From positions 310,001 to 374,000 of the forward strand of contig NZ_CP121648.1 in assembly GCF_029714205.1 (NCBI RefSeq): DNA of 64,000 nucleotides, given 5' to 3'. Source of the DNA: Methylobacterium sp. CB376 (GTDB lineage: Bacteria > Pseudomonadota > Alphaproteobacteria > Rhizobiales > Beijerinckiaceae). The notes under the pieces were generated by a model, which saw nothing but the letters and a program-made list of their open reading frames with translations, searched no databases and was not told the DNA's origin. Of this stretch, positions 4,506 through 58,498 are shown one piece after another. Positions within the stretch are counted from its first letter, which is position 1, and every line of letters starts with the position of its first letter. The position numbers and the translations under genes were made by a program.

Positions 4506-5819
4506 ATGACGACCTTCTCCCCCCGCGAAATCGTCTCCGAACTCGACCGCTACATCGTCGGCCAGGCCGACGCGAAGCGCGCGGTCGCGATCGCGCTGCG
4601 CAACCGCTGGCGCCGCCAGCAGCTCCACGGCCCCCTGCGCGAGGAGGTGGCGCCCAAGAACATCCTGATGATCGGCCCGACCGGCTGCGGCAAGACCGAG
4701 ATCTCGCGCCGCCTCGCCCGTCTGGCCAACGCGCCCTTCCTCAAGGTGGAGGCCACCAAGTTCACCGAGGTCGGCTATGTCGGCCGCGACGTCGAGCAGA
4801 TCGTGCGCGACCTCGTGGAGGTCGGGATCGGCCTCAAGCGCGACGAGAAGCGCCGCTCGGTCCAGGCCAGGGCGGAGGCGGCCGCGGAGGCGCGCATTCT
4901 CGACGCGCTCGTCGGGCCGACCGCGGGCCAGGCCACCCGCGACAGCTTCCGGCGCCGCCTGCGCGCGGGCGAACTCGACGACAAGGAGGTCGAGATCGAG
5001 CTCGCCAGCGCCGCGCCGAGCGGCCTGCCGATGTTCGAGATCCCGGGCGTGCCCGGCGCCGCCATGGGGGCGATCAACCTCGGCGACATGCTCGGCAAGG
5101 CGCTCGGCGGCCAGAAGGGCAAGCCGCGGCGCGTCACCGTGCGGGACGCCCACGCGCCCCTGATGGCCGAGGAATCCGACAAGCTCCTCGACCAGGACGC
5201 GATCGTCCAGGAGGCGGTCCGCGAGGTCGAGGACAACGGCATCGTGTTCCTCGACGAGGTCGACAAGATCTGCGCCCGCGAGGGCCGCGGCGGGGCGGAC
5301 GTCTCCCGCGAGGGGGTCCAGCGCGACCTGCTGCCGCTGATCGAGGGGACGACGGTCGCGACCAAGCACGGGCCGGTCAAGACCGACCACATCCTGTTCA
5401 TCGCGAGCGGGGCCTTCCACGTCTCGAAACCCTCCGACCTGCTGCCGGAGCTGCAGGGGCGGCTGCCGATCCGGGTGGAGCTCGCGCCGCTCACGGTCGA
5501 CGATTTCCGGCGCATCCTGACCGAGACCGAGGCGAGCCTGCTCAAGCAGGCGGTGGCGCTGATGGCCACGGAGGGCGTCGCCGTCACCTTCACGGAGGAC
5601 GCGGTCGACGCCCTCGCCCGGGTGGCCGTGGAGGTGAATTCCTCCGTCGAGAACATCGGCGCGCGCCGGCTGCAGACGGTGCTGGAGCGGGTGCTCGACG
5701 AGATCTCGTTCACGGCGCCCGACCGCGCGGGCGAGAGCGTGACGATCGACGCGGCCTATGTGCGGGAGCGGGTCGAGAGCCTCGCCCAGAACGCGGATCT
5801 GAGCCGGTTCATCCTGTGA
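4506..5819 (+). CDS. hslU: HslU, AAA+ unfoldase of the HslUV protease
   Basis: HslU unfolds substrates with ATP and feeds them into HslV. The 437-residue protein has Walker [10 protein letters not shown] at residues 57-65, the intermediate I-domain (about 110-240, rich in charged helices), Walker B FLDEVDKI, a sensor region with [11 protein letters not shown], the second-domain box [17 protein letters not shown], and the C-terminal tail ending SRFIL that docks into HslV. All the parts expected of a working HslU are present. The gene follows hslV and ends at a convergent junction with mraY that holds a copy of the dispersed repeat. Confidence 0.97.
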
Positions 5820-5912
5820 ACCGGGATCCGATCACGGCGGATCCCGGATCACGCGCCCGCGCGGCGCCTGAGCGAGGCCCGGATCCGCCGGCCCGAAGGG
5901 ATCGGGGATGAG
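5820..5912. repeat. Dispersed intergenic repeat, copy A (between hslU and mraY)
   Basis: This gap between the convergent genes hslU and mraY carries a copy of an element seen again at 21358-21502, 42080-42233 and, in part, 57408-57448. The shared core reads, in pieces, GGATCACGCGCCCGCGCGG, then CGCCTGAGCGAGGCCCGGAT, then CCCGAAGGGATCGGGGATG. The GATCCC-TTCG-GGAT-like inverted repeat inside it can fold as a short hairpin with a UUCG loop. This copy has diverged from the tandem copy at 42 kb, with CCCGGATCCGCCGGCCC in place of CCCAGATCCGCCATCCC. Confidence 0.7.
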
Positions 5913-13432: not shown

Positions 13433-13739
13433 GATGCTCCGCAATCTGCGAGGGCCGCGCACCCGGCCGGATCCGGCGCCGCACGACCGCCCGCGCCCCG
13501 CCCGAGAACGCGCCGGCCCGCTGGCCGCCGGGGACTCGCCCGTGCGCCGGTTTGGGTTGCGCCGTCAATGAGTTGGGCTGGGCTATCATGGGCCTCCGGG
13601 AGCGTCAACGCGGCCCTGCGGGGGAGGCCGCCTCGACGGAGCCCGATCAGACGGCAGCAACGTTAATGAAGGCTTGCGGAAATCGCCTCCCACCCGGGGA
13701 ACGTGCAGCCCGCCCTCGCCTTCGGGTGAGCGGAATGGG

Positions 13740-14149
<410 letters not shown>

Positions 14150-19062: not shown

Positions 19063-21357
19063 ATGCTGGAGGCGGATCCCGCCCCACTCACTGCTCGTGC
19101 GGCCACGATCCTCGGCATCGCGCGGGCCCTCACCCCGGCGCACCAGCGCCTGGCTCGCGCCGAATCCTGGCTGCGCGTGGCGATCCCGGCGGTGATCGGC
19201 CTGTTCCTGGTCTGCCTGTTCGCGATCACGGCGACCCAGCTGATGTCCCAGCGCCGCGACGCCGTCGCGGAGGCCGGCCGGGAGATCGACCTCCTGGCCC
19301 GGCTCGCCGCCGCGACCCTGGCGCAGGGCGGCGGCCTCGACGGGGCGGTGCCCGCGGGCGCGCTCATCCCCGGCCGCGAGATCCACCTGATCGGACCCGA
19401 CGAGGTGATCACGGCCTCCCTTCCGGTGCCGCTCCCGCCGGGGCGCAGCCTCGGGGAACATCTCGGCGAGGCGCAGCCGCTCCTCATCCTGGGGGAGCGG
19501 GCGGGCCTCATGACCGTCGGCCTCCGCGGCGCCCCGGCCCTCGCCACCCTGCGGGCGCTGCCGGGGGGCCAGCAGCGGGTCGCGGTGGTGCAATCCCTCG
19601 ACACCGTGACGGCGGCCTGGCAGGGCCGGGCCCGCACCGAGGCGATGGTGATCGGCACCGCCACCCTGGTGATCGTCTGCATCGGCCTCGCCTACACCCT
19701 GCAGGCCGACCGGGCGCGGGCGGTGGACCGGGTCTGCGAGCAGGTCCGCCAGCGCCTCGACACGGCGCTCTGCCGCGGGCGCTGCGGCCTGTGGGACTGG
19801 GACATCGCCCGCGGGCGGATCTACTGGTCGGACTCGATGTACCAGCTCCTCGGCTACACCCGGGAGCACGAGTTCCTGTCCTTCGGCGACGTGAACGCCC
19901 TCGTCCACCCGGACGACACCGACCTCTACGGCCTCGCGAGCCAGCTCGCCGCCCAGGACGCCACCGTCGACCACGAGTTCCGGATCCGCAGCGCCGCGGG
20001 CGAGTGGATCTGGCTCAAGGCCCGCGCCGAGATCGTGCGCGACCAGGAGGATGGCGGGCGCCACCTGGTCGGGATCGCCATCGACATCTCCGAGCAGCGC
20101 CGCCTCGCGGAATCGACCGCGACCGCCGACATGCGCCTGCGCGACGCCGTCGAGGCGGTCTCGGAGGCCTTCGTGCTCTGGGACGCGCAGAACCGCCTCG
20201 TCCTGTGCAACTCGAAATTCCGCCGCCTGCACGCCCTCACGCCGGAGGACGCGCAGCCGGGCCGCCGCTACGACACCATCATGGGCCGGGCGGCCGTGCC
20301 GCCGGTGCGCCGCGAGATCCAGGCCGGCGAATTCGCCGAGACCGGCGCGCGCACCTTCGAGGCCGAGCTCGCCGACGGGCGATGGCTCCAGATCAGCGAG
20401 CGCCGCACCAAGGACGGCGGCTACGTCTCGGTCGGCACCGACATCACCGCCCTCAAGCGCCACCAGGAGCGCCTCGTCGAATCCGAGCGCCAGCTGATCG
20501 CCACGATCGCCGACCTCAAGCGCTCCCGCCGCACCCTCGAACTTCAGACCCAGCAGCTCGCCGACCTCGCCGAGCGCTACCTCGACCAGAAGGCCCAGGC
20601 CGAGAGCGCCAACCGCTCCAAGTCCGAGTTCCTGGCCAACATGAGCCACGAGCTGCGCACCCCCCTCAACGCGATCCTGGGCTTCGCCGAGGTGATGCAG
20701 GACGAGGTCTTCGGGCATCTCGGCTGCGAGAAGTACCGCGAATATTGCCGCGACATCCGTTCCAGCGGCCAGTACCTGCTCTCGGTGATCGACGACATCC
20801 TGGACATGTCGCGCATCGAGGCGCGCCGCGTGACCCTCGCCAAGCAACCCCTGCCGGTGGCGGAGGTGCTGGAGCGGGTGCTCAAGGTCGTCGCCGAGGC
20901 GGCGCGGGCCAAGGGCCTCACCCTCAGCGTCGAGATGAACGCGGACGCGGTGGTGCTGGCGGATGCCCGCGCCCTGCACCAGATCCTGCTCAACCTGCTC
21001 CAGAACGCCGTGAAGTTCACGCCCGACGCGGGCCGCGTCGCGGTGCGCACGCGGCGGGCCCTCGATGCCGTCCACATCTACGTGGAGGATAGCGGCATCG
21101 GCATCCCGCGCACGGTGCTGCCGAAGCTCGGCGCGCCCTTCGAGCAGGTCGAGAGCAACCTCTCGCGCAGCTTCAAGGGCTCGGGCCTCGGCCTCGCGAT
21201 CGCCCGCTCCCTGACCGAGCTGCATGGCGGGCGCCTGCGCATCCGCTCGGAGGTCGGCTCGGGCACCATCGTGCTGGTGCGGCTGCCCCAGCCGCCGGGC
21301 GACGCGCCCTTCGCGCGCGAGGGCGCGGTGGCAGCGCTGCCGGCTCCGGTGGCCTGA
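19063..21357 (+). CDS. Membrane PAS-domain histidine kinase of the DivJ/PleC/PdhS type
   Basis: The 764-residue protein has a first membrane helix near residues 33-55 (IPAVIGLFLVCLFAITATQL), an outside domain of about 140 residues, and a second helix near 194-215 (MVIGTATLVIVCIGLAYTL). Two PAS domains follow: one near 235-345 with YQLLGYTREHEF and VHPDDTDLYG, and one near 355-460. Next come a HisKA domain with phospho-acceptor His529 in NMSHELRTPLNAILGFAEVM, and an ATPase domain ending in a GSGLGLAIARSL G-box. The text after the H-box (DEVFGHLG, YREYCRDI, SVIDDILDMSRIEA) is the signature of the DivJ/PleC/PdhS kinases that act on DivK/PleD. The paralogue identity is not certain. Confidence 0.88.
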   Translation: MLEADPAPLTARAATILGIARALTPAHQRLARAESWLRVAIPAVIGLFLVCLFAITATQLMSQRRDAVAEAGREIDLLARLAAATLAQGGGLDGAVPAGALIPGREIHLIGPDEVITASLPVPLPPGRSLGEHLGEAQPLLILGERAGLMTVGLRGAPALATLRALPGGQQRVAVVQSLDTVTAAWQGRARTEAMVIGTATLVIVCIGLAYTLQADRARAVDRVCEQVRQRLDTALCRGRCGLWDWDIARGRIYWSDSMYQLLGYTREHEFLSFGDVNALVHPDDTDLYGLASQLAAQDATVDHEFRIRSAAGEWIWLKARAEIVRDQEDGGRHLVGIAIDISEQRRLAESTATADMRLRDAVEAVSEAFVLWDAQNRLVLCNSKFRRLHALTPEDAQPGRRYDTIMGRAAVPPVRREIQAGEFAETGARTFEAELADGRWLQISERRTKDGGYVSVGTDITALKRHQERLVESERQLIATIADLKRSRRTLELQTQQLADLAERYLDQKAQAESANRSKSEFLANMSHELRTPLNAILGFAEVMQDEVFGHLGCEKYREYCRDIRSSGQYLLSVIDDILDMSRIEARRVTLAKQPLPVAEVLERVLKVVAEAARAKGLTLSVEMNADAVVLADARALHQILLNLLQNAVKFTPDAGRVAVRTRRALDAVHIYVEDSGIGIPRTVLPKLGAPFEQVESNLSRSFKGSGLGLAIARSLTELHGGRLRIRSEVGSGTIVLVRLPQPPGDAPFAREGAVAALPAPVA

Positions 21358-21502
21358 TCCGGGATCCGGTCGATCCAAGCGGCTCCCGGATCATCCGCTG
21401 TCCGGACGATCGCTTCCGGAACGCGCATGACGAGCCCGCGCGGCGCGCGAGCGAAGCCCCAATCCGTCATCCCGAAGGGATCGAGCGGATCGGGGATGAG
21501 GG
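21358..21502. repeat. Dispersed intergenic repeat, copy B (between histidine kinase and glnE)
   Basis: This is a second copy of the element, again between convergent genes. It opens with GATCCGGGATCCGGTCGATC-like text and, from 21430, carries CGAGCCCGCGCGGCGCGCG, then AGCGAAGCCCCAATCCGTC, then ATCCCGAAGGGATCGAGCGG and ATCGGGGATGAG. The hairpin-forming ATCCC-GAAG-GGAT segment is at 21469-21481. The rest of the gap (to 21631) is GC-rich and holds no gene I can support. Confidence 0.75.
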
Positions 21503-41272: not shown

Positions 41273-41331
41273 ATCGCCGCGGCGCCCGCCCGCGCGCCGC
41301 CGCGGCGAGCGCCCCGCCCGAGAGGTTCCGG

Positions 41332-41922
41332 ATGGCCACCGACGTGCCGACCATCTACGCCAACGCGGTCCTGGGCCTGAGCCTGCGCCGCCCGGGCATC
41401 CTGCAGCTGACCCTGGGGGCGGCCGGCTTCGCGGCGGAGGAGGCCGACGCGGTCGTGCGCCTCGCGCTGCCGGACGACACCGTGGTGGAACTCGTCGACG
41501 CCCTCGTCGAGGGGCTCCAGGCCGCCGCCGAGTCCGACGAGGAGGACGAGGAGGGCCCCGAGCCCTACGAGGCCTCCGTGGGGGACGTCGCCACGGCCGG
41601 GCTCCTCGCCACCACGCTCGCCACCGCGATGGGCGACGCGCTGAGCCTGCTCTCGGAGCGGCCCGACTTCGCCGAGCGCCTGAACGAGATCGAGGAGCGG
41701 GCGCTGCTGACCACGCGCAACTCCGTCTCGGAGGGCGTCTCGGTCGAGGACGAGGCCAAGGCCGTGCGCGACACGGTGGCGGTGCTCCAGAGCCTGTTCG
41801 CCCATTGGCGCAGCGAGCACGGCCCGCCCTCCGATCCCCCTCCGCCCGAGACGCCGCCGCCCGACTCTCCTCCCGAAGCACCTCCGCCCGGGACGCCGCC
41901 GGAACCCGGGCCGACGGGCTGA
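41332..41922 (+). CDS. Hypothetical protein with Pro-rich tail (196 aa)
   Basis: The product starts MATDVPTIYANAVLGLSLRR, with helices containing LTLGAAGFAAEEADAVVRLA, an acidic loop (ESDEEDEEGPEPYE), and a helical centre with LATAMGDALSLLSERPDFAE. The last 35 residues are almost all Pro, Glu, Asp and Gly. No signal peptide or membrane helix, and no family recognised. Its place 59 bp after minE suggests shared transcription, but nothing in it points to division. The codon pattern is consistent with a real gene. Confidence 0.72.
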   Translation: MATDVPTIYANAVLGLSLRRPGILQLTLGAAGFAAEEADAVVRLALPDDTVVELVDALVEGLQAAAESDEEDEEGPEPYEASVGDVATAGLLATTLATAMGDALSLLSERPDFAERLNEIEERALLTTRNSVSEGVSVEDEAKAVRDTVAVLQSLFAHWRSEHGPPSDPPPPETPPPDSPPEAPPPGTPPEPGPTG

Positions 41923-42079
41923 GCGGCCCCGATCCAGGGCCCGCGGTCGGCTTCGGCTGCGCGAAAGCCGGCCGGGCCCCGCCGCGATCCCGATCCGGCG
42001 CGTCGCGTGGCGTCCGCGCGATCGCTCCGCGTCGCGGATGCCGACCCGGGGTCGCGGGGCGTGACCGCTGGAATCATCC

Positions 42080-42233
42080 CCCATCCGCTCGATCCCTTCG
42101 GGATGGCGGATGTGGGCTTCGCTCAGGCGCCGCGCGGGCTCATGATCCGCTCGATCCCTTCGGGATGGCGGATCTGGGCTTCGCTCAGGCGCCGCGCGGG
42201 CGCGTGATCCGCTTCGATCAACCCGATCCCGGA
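42080..42233. repeat. Dispersed intergenic repeat, copy C (tandem double copy before nupC)
   Basis: Two near-identical units sit side by side with a 62-bp period. Each carries CCGCTCGATCCCTTCGGGAT, then GGCGGAT(G/C)TGGGCTTCGC, then TCAGGCGCCGCGCGGGC; they start at 42085 and 42147. A partial outer arm (GATCAACCCGATCCCGGATC) follows up to the nupC stop. CGATCCC-TTCG-GGAT can fold into a hairpin with a UUCG loop on the strand read toward minus-strand genes. The flanking genes are convergent. This is the best-preserved copy in the window. Confidence 0.82.
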
Positions 42234-43484
42234 TCACTCCTCCACGAACAGGCCCGCGATGGCCGCGCTCGTGAAGTTCGACAGGCTGCCCGCCAGGATC
42301 GCCCGCAGCCCGTAGGAGGCGACCTCGGCCCGGCGCTCCGGGACGAGGCTGCCGAAGCTCGCGAGCTGGATCGCGATCGAGGCGAGATTGGCGAAGCCGC
42401 AGAGGGCGAAGCACAGGATCGCGGTGGTGCGCCGGCCGAGTTCGCCGCTGCGCAGCACCGGCGAGAGGTTGGCGTAGGCCAGGAACTCGTTGAAGGCGAC
42501 CTTCTGGCCGATCGCCGTGCCCACGATGCCGGCCCGCTCCCAGGGCACGCCGAGGATCCAGGCGAGGGGCCGGAACAGCGCCCCGAGGATCGCCTCGATG
42601 GAGGCGCCCGCGACGCCGAGGAGGCCGCCGAGCCAGCCGACGAGGCCGTTCGCGAGCGCGATCAGGCCCACGAAGGCGATCAGCATGGCGCCCACCGCCA
42701 CCGCGACGGCGAGGCCCTTCTGGGTGCCCTCCGCCGCGGCCTCGATCAGGTTGACGGCCCGGCGCTCGCCGAACTCGGCCCGCATGGTCCTGACCCGGCT
42801 CGGCTCCGTCGAGGGCACCAGGATCTTGGCGTAGAGGAGCCCGCCCGGGATCGCCATCACGGAGGCGGCGAGCAGGTACTCCATCGGCACGCCGAGGGCC
42901 GCGTAGCCGGCCAGGATCGAGCCCGCCGTTGAGGCCGCGCCGCTCGACATGACGGCGAAGAGCTCGGACCCGGTCAGGAGCGGCAGGAAGGGCCGCAGCG
43001 CCACCGCGATCTCGCTCTGGCCGATCGCGATGGTGATCACCGCCGAGAAGGTCTCGATCCGCGAGGTGCCGAGGAGCCGCTGCAGCGCGGCGCCGATCAC
43101 CCGCGCCATCCCCTGCATGATCCCGAGATGGTAGAGCACCCCGATCAGCGCCGAGACGTAGACGATCTGCGGCAGCACCCGGAAGGCGAGCACGAAGCCG
43201 CCCTGGTCGAAGAGATCGAACATCCTGGGCGCGACGAGGCCGCCGAACAGGAAGGCCGCGCCCCGGTCGCCGTAGGCGAGCACCGCCGCGACCGCCTCGG
43301 CCGCCGTCCCGAGCAGGCGCCGCCCGGTGGGCAGGAGCAGGATCGCGGCCCCGAGCAGCACCTGGATGGCGAGGGCCGAGAGCACGGTCCGGGGCCGGAT
43401 CGCCCGCCGGTCGGTGGAGGCCAGGACCGCGATCGCGAGGAGCACCGCGAGGCTCAGCGCGGCGTGCAGGATCCTCTCGGCCAT
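42234..43484 (-). CDS. NupC-type concentrative nucleoside transporter
   Basis: This 416-residue CNT-family symporter takes up nucleosides with H+ or Na+. About ten hydrophobic helices are seen. The family text includes ALIGVLYHLGIMQGMARVIG, GQSEIAVALRPFLPLLTGSE, MSSGAASTAGSILAGYAALG and GTAIGQKVAFNEFLAYANLS. The final part has CFALCGFANLASIAIQ. Start at ATG 43482-43484. It is a single gene, divergent from the caspase-like gene by about 180 bp. Confidence 0.9.
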   Translation of the reverse strand: MAERILHAALSLAVLLAIAVLASTDRRAIRPRTVLSALAIQVLLGAAILLLPTGRRLLGTAAEAVAAVLAYGDRGAAFLFGGLVAPRMFDLFDQGGFVLAFRVLPQIVYVSALIGVLYHLGIMQGMARVIGAALQRLLGTSRIETFSAVITIAIGQSEIAVALRPFLPLLTGSELFAVMSSGAASTAGSILAGYAALGVPMEYLLAASVMAIPGGLLYAKILVPSTEPSRVRTMRAEFGERRAVNLIEAAAEGTQKGLAVAVAVGAMLIAFVGLIALANGLVGWLGGLLGVAGASIEAILGALFRPLAWILGVPWERAGIVGTAIGQKVAFNEFLAYANLSPVLRSGELGRRTTAILCFALCGFANLASIAIQLASFGSLVPERRAEVASYGLRAILAGSLSNFTSAAIAGLFVEE

Positions 43485-57388: not shown

Positions 57389-57407
57389 GCGGGGCGCGCC
57401 GCGCGGG

Positions 57408-57448
57408 TTCGCGATCCGGGAGCCGCCGTGATCCAACCGGATCCCGGC
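57408..57448. repeat. Dispersed intergenic repeat, partial copy D
   Basis: The text CGATCCGGGAGCCGCCGTGA then TCCAACCGGATCCCGGCTCA matches only the outer arm of the element (compare 21358-21400), without the UUCG hairpin core. It again lies between convergent genes: DUF2155 on the plus strand and a kinase on the minus strand. Confidence 0.45.
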
Positions 57449-58498
57449 TCAGCCCTGGAACGCCAGCGTCGCGCGGGTGCCGCGAGGGAGGCGGTCGTAC
57501 TCGACCTTGGAGCGCAGGTTCGTGCCCATGGCCCGCAGGATGCGCGAGCCGAGGCCGGAGCCGAGCGGGGTCCCCTCCCCCGACCAGCCGATGCCGTCGT
57601 CCTCGACCACGAGGCAGAGCGCGTCCTCGCCGCGCCGCGTGATGGCGACCCGGATCTCCCCCGCCACCTCGGGCGGATAGGCGTACTTGTAGGCGTTGGT
57701 GACGAGTTCGGTCACGACGACGCCGAGCGAGACCGCCTTGTCGGTGGCGAGCCGGATCGGCTCGGCCCGCAGGCGGATGGCGTGGTCGCGCCCCGCCGCC
57801 TTCATGGAGGCTTCGAGTTCCTCGACCAGGCTCGCCAGGTAGGCGTCGACCTCGACCGCCTGGACGTCCTGCGAGGTGTAGAGGCGGCGGTGGATCCCCG
57901 CGATGGCGGAGATCCGCGCCTGCATCTCCTCGAGCGCGCTCTTGGCGGCCGGGTCCGTCACCGCGTTGGTCTGCATCCGGGCCAGCGCCGCCACCAGGGC
58001 GAGGGAGTTGGCGACGCGGTGATTCACCTCCCGCAGCAGGATCTCGGCCCGGTCGCGGGCGGCCCGCACCTCGGCCTCCGCCCGCTCCTTGTCCCGCCGC
58101 AGCGCCTCCTGGCGCAGGGCGGTGTCGATCGCCTCGCCGAGGAGTTCGCGGAAATGGCCCTGCACGTCCTTCCAGACGTAATCCACGGCGCCGGCCTTGA
58201 GGGCGGCCACGGCGACGCGGCTGTCCTCCGAGCCGGTCACGTAGACGACCGGGGGCGCCTCGGGCAGGGCCCGGATCGCCGCCAGCACCTCGAGCCCGCT
58301 GCGGCCCGGCATGTGGTGGTCGAGGGCGACCACGTCGATGCCGCCCGCCCGCAGCCGCGCCAGCCCCGCCTCCCCGTCCTCGGCGAGGTCCACGGCGTAG
58401 CCCCGGCCCCGCAGGGCGCGCTGGACGAGGCGCCCGAGCCCGGGATCGTCGTCGATGTAGAGGATGCGGGCCTGGCCCGGCGCGGCCGCGTCGCTCAT
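57449..58498 (-). CDS. Response regulator fused to HisKA_2-type histidine kinase
   Basis: The 349-residue protein has an N-terminal receiver domain (phospho-acceptor Asp60 in VVALDHHMPGRSG, Lys in YVWKDV) followed by a HisKA_2 kinase module. His160 in ILLREVNHRVANSLALVAAL is followed by a Gyrase/HSP90-type ATPase domain with VVTELVTNAYKYAY and EDDGIGW. Such receiver-kinase proteins sit in the middle of phosphorelays. Its ATG overlaps the stop of the upstream response regulator gene (ATGA). Confidence 0.9.
   Translation of the reverse strand: MSDAAAPGQARILYIDDDPGLGRLVQRALRGRGYAVDLAEDGEAGLARLRAGGIDVVALDHHMPGRSGLEVLAAIRALPEAPPVVYVTGSEDSRVAVAALKAGAVDYVWKDVQGHFRELLGEAIDTALRQEALRRDKERAEAEVRAARDRAEILLREVNHRVANSLALVAALARMQTNAVTDPAAKSALEEMQARISAIAGIHRRLYTSQDVQAVEVDAYLASLVEELEASMKAAGRDHAIRLRAEPIRLATDKAVSLGVVVTELVTNAYKYAYPPEVAGEIRVAITRRGEDALCLVVEDDGIGWSGEGTPLGSGLGSRILRAMGTNLRSKVEYDRLPRGTRATLAFQG

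Follow-up and report, generated by a model that had tools for sequence, protein, structure and literature searches.

The BOX elements of Streptococcus pneumoniae are modular, with a middle unit that is repeated a variable number of times, and insertion sequences of the IS1031 group of the IS5 family generate a 3-bp T-N-A target duplication. BOX elements are also named in a review of bacterial MITEs (PMC10969869), which, in the portion available, describes MITEs as short, non-coding elements with inverted ends and direct target repeats that lie in intergenic regions and whose transcripts would form stem-loops. REPs gather between convergent and co-directional ORFs, with hundreds of palindromes near 3' ends, and the CGTC families, which are mostly alphaproteobacterial, come without a dedicated transposase (PMC3733652, available sections). 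In Bradyrhizobium, the composite palindromes Br-REP1 and Br-REP2 were first noticed in overlapping convergent 3' UTRs and occupy about 200 sites, unequally distributed between species (PMC5082802, available sections). A location at 3' ends is therefore not new. In the accessible parts of the literature we found neither an account of the present repeat family in Methylobacterium nor a description of a target duplication at stop codons combined with a conserved linker and drifting stems.

The window analyzed here is a 64,000-nucleotide stretch (G000:C1:310001-374000) of a Methylobacterium genome of 7.69 Mb, of which the chromosome makes up 7.64 Mb. The original prediction placed a composite hairpin repeat at four sites in this window, and related elements are indeed present at all four, each between convergent stop codons according to our own gene calls. 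The prediction counted four occupied convergent junctions out of ten; four are occupied, but our gene calls give eight such junctions. Its places were right and its boundaries had to be corrected, and with the corrected boundaries copies 1 to 3 each lie between two TGA (or TCA) triplets. Chance similarity is excluded: with as many as 3 mismatches allowed, a 22-base core pattern matches the genome at 136 places, versus 0 for the same pattern read backwards.

Copy 1 (5820..5908, + strand; sequence, module profiles and RNA fold) consists of a type A head hairpin, a linker and a tail hairpin, head first. It directly follows the TGA at 5817..5819 (+), which is at once its left target repeat and the stop codon of an HslU-like AAA gene (ORF 4506-5819, with an AAA_2 domain match and scored as a coding end), and it is closed by the TGA of the right target repeat at 5909..5911 (+). 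Copy 2 (21358..21496, +; sequence and module profiles) carries a head A, a head D, a linker and a tail B between the TGA at 21355..21357 (+), the left target repeat and stop codon of a PAS/histidine kinase gene identified by ORF and domain match, and the TGA of the right target repeat at 21497..21499 (+). Copy 3 (42077..42233, − strand; sequence and module profiles) is made of a decayed head A followed by two linker and tail B units, confirming the predicted 62-bp tandem period. Its head adjoins the nucleoside-transporter (nupC-like) gene, whose TGA stop codon at 42234..42236 (−; ORF and domain match, with the same protein end in other species) doubles as a target repeat, and its distal target repeat is the TGA at 42074..42076 (−). 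Copy 4 is a truncated copy reduced to a head A hairpin (57413..57448, −; sequence and module profile), abutting the TGA stop codon of a response-regulator/histidine-kinase gene at 57449..57451 (−; ORF and domain match) and adjoined by a decayed linker remnant recognized by eye at 57394..57412 (−). The heads of all four copies hence start exactly on the stop codon of a gene, a feature absent from the original prediction.

Across the genome, the elements usually follow one order: a head hairpin comes first, and a conserved linker with its tail hairpin follows as a unit present one to three times, the whole flanked by a 3-bp direct repeat, T-N-A. Heads are of type A (TGATCCGGGATCC...GGATCCCGGATCA) or type D (T(G/C)AT-N-CGCTGTCCGGACGATCACGTCCGGACAGCG), the linker approximates GCCCGCGCGGCGCYTGAGCGAAG, and tails are of type B (AATCCGCCATCCCGAAGGGATCAAGCGGATT) or type C, a longer relative of tail B. 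Among 94 clusters, window included, the linker and tail unit occurs once in 68, twice in 14 and three times in 5, and 7 clusters have no tail. The elements are short (<500 bp) and non-coding, measuring 102 bp between triplets in one chromosomal copy (L283). As judged by eye, the elements end in loose terminal inverted repeats (approximately T-M-C-G-N3-T-C-C-G), which are made of the outermost arms of the head and tail hairpins and are perfect over 11 bases in one copy (L270) and partial in many others. Beside 58 A heads of the same genome, located independently of the linker, the linker has 87% or more identity to the consensus in 41 cases, 70-87% in 9 and below 70% in 8. The UUCG-loop hairpin of the original prediction exists on the strand running against the element; read along the element, tail B has a GAA tip with C-G as its closing pair. 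In several species, the tail hairpin likewise has a tip that in most cases reads C-GAA-G, which gives C-UUCG-G on the opposite strand, and its inner stem appears by eye to vary with compensation.

This anatomy resembles that of BOX elements in the repeated middle unit and departs from it in target and modules, as far as descriptions can be compared. It agrees with the IS1031 group in the T-N-A duplication. With MITEs, as characterized in the available part of PMC10969869, the elements share their shortness, lack of coding capacity, loosely inverted ends, direct target repeats, intergenic position and transcripts that would form stem-loops. Unlike MITEs, their ends are hairpins of drifting sequence while the internal linker is better conserved, they are GC-rich and often seated on stop codons, and no parent insertion sequence was found in the roughly 2 of 7.7 Mb of the genome that were read. 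Unlike the REP/BIME, GTAG and CGTC families, as far as these are covered by the sources at hand, they show matched 3-bp flanks, have no tag tetranucleotide and occur in a genome without a RAYT gene. The likeness to Br-REP1 and Br-REP2 lies in the composition from several palindromes at convergent gene ends; the consensus differs, and neither target duplication nor stop-codon seating is reported for Br-REPs in the available text of PMC5082802. A search of plasmids with the Br-REP2 consensus gave its best match (88.6% over 35 of 40 bases) in Terrarubrum, where it marks what reads as a different repeat, all other matches being weaker. That Terrarubrum plasmid locus (L302, 490-710) holds a composite palindrome resembling the published Br-REP2 consensus, with CGTCAT/ATGACG ends.

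To establish the genomic distribution of the elements, we used 80 stretches of 20 kb taken at even steps (1.6 Mb, 70.6% GC), in which genes were called with a simple hexamer-model caller of our own; it assigned 72% of the sequence to coding regions, so that some genes were probably missed or cut short. Profiles for the modules (A, LB, LC and D) gave 0 hits in reversed control sequence at E <= 1e-3. The sample contains 90 elements in addition to the four in the window, or about 430 per genome by extrapolation, counts that are slightly low because stretches L031-L110 were partly masked as runs of N; the linker by itself matches 452 places in the whole genome when 2 mismatches are tolerated. These are high-copy extragenic palindromes, none of the 90 being scored as genic. 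They are not, as had been proposed, found only between convergent genes: 34 are convergent, 45 co-directional and 4 divergent, and 7 at stretch edges could not be classified. The expected enrichment at convergent junctions is nevertheless clear. When the 7 edge elements are left out and only gaps spanning 40 bp or more are counted, convergent gaps are occupied in 32 of 123 cases, co-directional ones in 43 of 477 and divergent ones in 4 of 170 (convergent versus the 47 of 647 others, p 2e-8), and the preference also holds by intergenic length (p 1e-8). Divergent gaps are depleted (p 1.5e-5). Convergent gaps are about 3 times richer in copies than co-directional and about 10 times richer than divergent gaps. 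Co-directional copies lie close to the upstream stop codon, at a median distance of 6 bp, versus 224 bp to the next start.

The triplets flanking the elements were compared in the head-and-tail elements of sample and window (n=76), elements lacking a head or a tail being left out. The right triplet was readable in 55 of these 76, the remaining 21 right ends being unreadable. T-N-A stands at both ends of 50 copies; these flanks are the same in 45 (37 TGA/TGA and 8 TCA/TCA) and differ in 5. The pooled agreement (Fisher p 4e-6 on 49 G/C cases) partly reflects type A heads, which carry TGA in 45 of 47 cases, in part since the A profile itself begins with TGA; for this reason A heads say little about whether the triplets vary together. 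Type D heads, at which the triplet does vary, agree in 16 of 18 cases (8 TGA/TGA, 8 TCA/TCA and 2 TCA/TGA; p 0.001), and a copy on a Methylobacterium indicum plasmid provides a third matched variant, with TAA on both sides. In 6 of the 8 TCA pairs, the right triplet is the stop codon of a gene on the opposite strand, and the seating of these pairs is thus the same event in the other orientation. Targets are unevenly oriented, with 37 TGA versus 8 TCA in element orientation, and no extended target motif beyond T-N-A is evident at the 45 sites.

Direct repeats of this kind could also arise without a staggered-cut transposase, if a circular form with a TGA core were inserted by site-specific recombination through an integrase or an IS110-like enzyme. 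TGA is by far the commonest triplet and the orientation is biased, as such a mechanism would have it; the matched TCA and TAA pairs, however, suggest a triplet derived from the target, whereas a fixed core would not vary in this way, and we regard this route as very unlikely.

The only clearly intragenic copy encountered provides a view of the insertion itself. At L283 ~2144-2251 (G000:C1 ~3184430), the 102-bp element interrupts an IS5-type (DUF4096) transposase gene and reads TGA-element-TGACACGC, and an empty relative in Methylobacterium sp. WSM2598 reads ATGACACGC, with a single TGA. This relative is 87-89% identical rather than an identical copy and is one base longer just left of the TGA, which counts somewhat against the reading. 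Taken together, the matched flanks and the related empty site suggest that insertion duplicates a 3-bp T-N-A target. Taken alone, the empty site would fit equally an insertion 3' of TGA by an element bearing TGA at its right end, as in palindromes of the REP/BIME type that a RAYT transposase (an HUH tyrosine enzyme) mobilizes through a tetranucleotide tag and single-stranded hairpins. Hundreds of intergenic palindromes of modular make-up, hairpins that are kept, and the 3'-flank location reported for REPs in the consulted part of PMC3733652 agree with that mechanism, which was one of those put forward in the original prediction. Against it, the flanking triplets vary together (TGA, TCA, TAA), which is not expected from RAYT transposition, and no GTAG or CGTC tag stands beside the triplets, the neighboring bases varying by eye over 45 sites. 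Searches for the RAYT domain Y1_Tnp gave 0 matches in the genome itself, and matches in 15 of 111 genus genomes, with just 2 of the 12 genomes with at least 40 linker copies possessing one and no tie to copy number. A RAYT origin is accordingly highly improbable. Two contigs of the viral collection IMG/VR (L300 and L301) contain the linker within complete elements, with TGA at the left and right ends in both.

Seating on stop codons is precise. For 31 of the 50 type A heads that neighbor a called gene end, those of the window included, the start falls exactly 3 bases inside this end, with every other distance seen at most twice, and one flank is the TGA stop codon of a called gene in 40 of the 76 elements; by comparison, the non-coding TGA/TCA sites of the sample comprise 984 stops versus 9337 others. 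Under a stricter null confined to 3' zones (convergent gaps, and the 150 bp immediately downstream of stops), and with a seating rule slightly different from that of the preceding count, 40 of 63 sample elements are seated versus 33% expected (p 1e-6). The residual, roughly twofold excess may reflect a real preference, selection or errors in gene calling. All 40 seated stops among the 76 elements are TGA, when TAG accounts for 135 of 1151 stops; the chance of finding zero TAG among 40 is 0.007, a figure to be read with the fact that the counting favors TGA heads. A coding-potential test made without gene calls, with a cut-off passed by 83% of 970 called TGA stops and with tandem units counted more than once, scored the TGA of the head as a coding end in 35 of 69 own-genome and 12 of 24 other-species heads; a further 46 own-genome and 2 other-species heads had no TGA at the edge. 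In the public annotation of an M. currus plasmid, the stop codon of a TRAP permease gene falls exactly on the TGA of a head.

The nupC-like gene adjoining copy 3 allows the order of events to be read. We fetched 74 nupC-like loci, of which 39 were read by eye and all 74 scanned for the linker. In 38 inspected loci from other species, the gene stops at the same position or no more than one codon away from it, and only the WSM2598 locus carries a linker; the element therefore arrived at an existing stop codon. In another Methylobacterium genome (L259 in G039), an element occupies the apparent stop codon of hslU, judged by eye, as does the window copy at 5817, and the two may owe this to shared ancestry or to repeated insertion.

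WSM2598 is a close relative of the strain analyzed, its genome being about 98 to 99.7% identical by block and one of its proteins 100% identical to the nucleoside transporter of the window. All 24 elements in 535 kb are present in WSM2598 at the same places, one of them in a region rearranged there. No insertion differences were found among these 24 elements, and there is therefore no sign of recent movement. Differences within elements do occur: at 4 of the 24, the strains are one tandem unit (62 or 68 bp) apart in length, and at 2 they are 13 bp apart. The WSM2598 counterpart of copy 2 has one extra tandem unit, and that of copy 3 has three units versus two in the window. Tandem units thus change quickly, while insertion is not currently seen, and a unit differing between strains that otherwise share about 99.5% identity could serve strain typing. 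In WSM2598, about 2.7 kb of the region matching G000:C1:38.8-43.6 kb is also duplicated, the two copies lying some 1.7 kb apart with other DNA in between, and so an element with inverted units is present there twice.

Within the genus, the linker (up to 2 mismatches) was detected in 89 of 111 genomes, with 0 to 452 copies per genome, at least 10 copies in 34 genomes and at least 40 in 12. Outside it, with one mismatch allowed, it was found as single hits in 5 of 388 genomes from other genera of the order. The plasmids with a match amount to 5 records, all from Methylobacterium, and the phages searched gave no match. An exact 18-base linker pattern had matches in 9 of 10 searched Methylobacterium genomes, and the 30 other-species loci among the matches listed show the same plan with different stem sequences; the invariance of the linker in the alignment of these 30 loci is largely by construction, because they were fetched with the exact pattern, and one genome with 92 relaxed linker matches has no exact one. 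The repeats are probably a family of the genus Methylobacterium.

In other species, arms pair with their own partner at 87% (21 heads) and 92% (16 tails) of positions, versus 66% and 49% when arms are paired across copies; in the own genome, the corresponding figures are 88% versus 82% for heads and 84% versus 52% for tails. Stems change between species and yet keep pairing. Double changes in A stems of the own genome, which are related sequences, affect 4 pairs versus 0.9 in shuffles, a value reached in 1 of 500. One analysis of A-head stems was restricted to the 39-bp A heads (n=31).

These observations bear on the possibility that the elements are a host RNA device, a bidirectional 3'-end hairpin acting as a Rho barrier, an exonuclease block or an aid to ribosome release and selected at gene ends. 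The foot of the type A hairpin is the stop codon itself, double changes leave the pairing of the stems intact, the head comes first relative to transcription in 33 of 45 co-directional cases, and imperfect pairs show a raw excess of G-U over A-C (47 to 18) whose underlying changes are not independent. This excess, however, shrinks to 7 versus 4 distinct positions in own-genome A heads once shared changes are counted once, no U-tract follows the hairpins, and pairing could instead serve the needs of transposition. One representative element folds better than shuffles on both strands (z -6.3 and -5.6), but the window copies do so only modestly (z -1.3 to -2.4). Furthermore, the linker is absent or near absent in many species of the genus, and with copy numbers ranging from 0 to 452 a host device would therefore be dispensable. 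A role as an RNA 3'-end structure, which would be compatible with a mobile origin and does not compete with it, is possible, and as an account of the repeats we hold it rather unlikely. If the host does use the hairpins, many genes carry a structure that starts in their stop codon, at which any influence on RNA decay or on the release of ribosomes could be measured.

GC-rich hairpins at 3' ends would likewise be expected of ordinary intrinsic terminators, whether common descent or convergence accounts for their similarity. None of the examined flanks, however, has 5 T in 8 bases after the hairpin, no terminator-like site was detected in 41300-43000, and the hairpins belong to a dispersed repeat whose flanking triplets match; a canonical form of the two-way terminator in the original prediction is thus not supported, and intrinsic termination as the sole explanation is refuted and almost certainly wrong.

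We conclude that the repeats are probably short, non-coding, modular, MITE-like transposable elements that generate a TNA duplication and are tolerated chiefly at stop codons and 3' flanks. The closest of the three suggestions made originally was that of a mobile element, which the matched T-N-A flanks and the related empty site favor, although its restriction to convergent sites does not stand. On this reading, the element would insert at a T-N-A triplet and duplicate it, and in a GC-rich genome the usable triplet would nearly always be TGA or its complement, TCA. Intragenic insertions would be lost to selection and those in front of genes would be rare, leaving survivors on TGA stops or 3' flanks and hence making convergent gaps rich in copies. 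Because the triplet is duplicated, the stop codon would stay intact and, with a type A head, would become the first three bases of the hairpin. The element would be non-autonomous, moved by a transposase acting in trans, and selection rather than active choice would give most of the stop-codon bias.

Several observations weigh against this explanation. The end motif is loose, which is unusual for an element recognized by its terminal sequence, and tolerance alone does not fully explain the twofold stop-codon excess over the 3'-zone expectation. The identity of strains in their insertions, the uneven target orientation, the 5 disagreeing flank pairs of 50 and the 21 unreadable right ends of 76 also stand against it, as does the result of the search for an autonomous partner, which recognized no autonomous relative or transposase among the regions examined. 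In that search, the end motif occurred 21 times as an inverted pair with a spacing of 500-3500 bp, many of these pairs being the ends of two separate elements, and translation of 11 such regions, read by eye and not by library scan, revealed no transposase. No parent insertion sequence with matching ends was found in about 2 of the 7.7 Mb of the genome. Likewise, no insertion sequence of the IS1031 group with the ends of the repeats was found, and 15 IS5-type (DUF4096) loci of the genome that were compared have other ends. A more unusual system can be imagined, in which an enzyme of a kind not yet tied to such elements would recognize hairpin shape and the one internal linker, leave the stems free to drift and land on TGA stops, with hairpins footed in the stop codon being used as a two-way RNA 3' end; we deem this improbable.

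The MITE-like reading turns a vague pattern of 3'-end repeats into a testable mechanism, a target duplication often coinciding with a stop codon. Tolerance combined with a TNA target may also underlie other alphaproteobacterial 3'-end palindromic repeats, which are often read as RNA devices. Regarding structured RNA in the window, a tRNA search returned no genes and Rfam gave no match to the repeats at gathering score, its sole match being a bacterial RNase P RNA of class A (RF00010, 254.9 bits) at 13738-14147 on the − strand.
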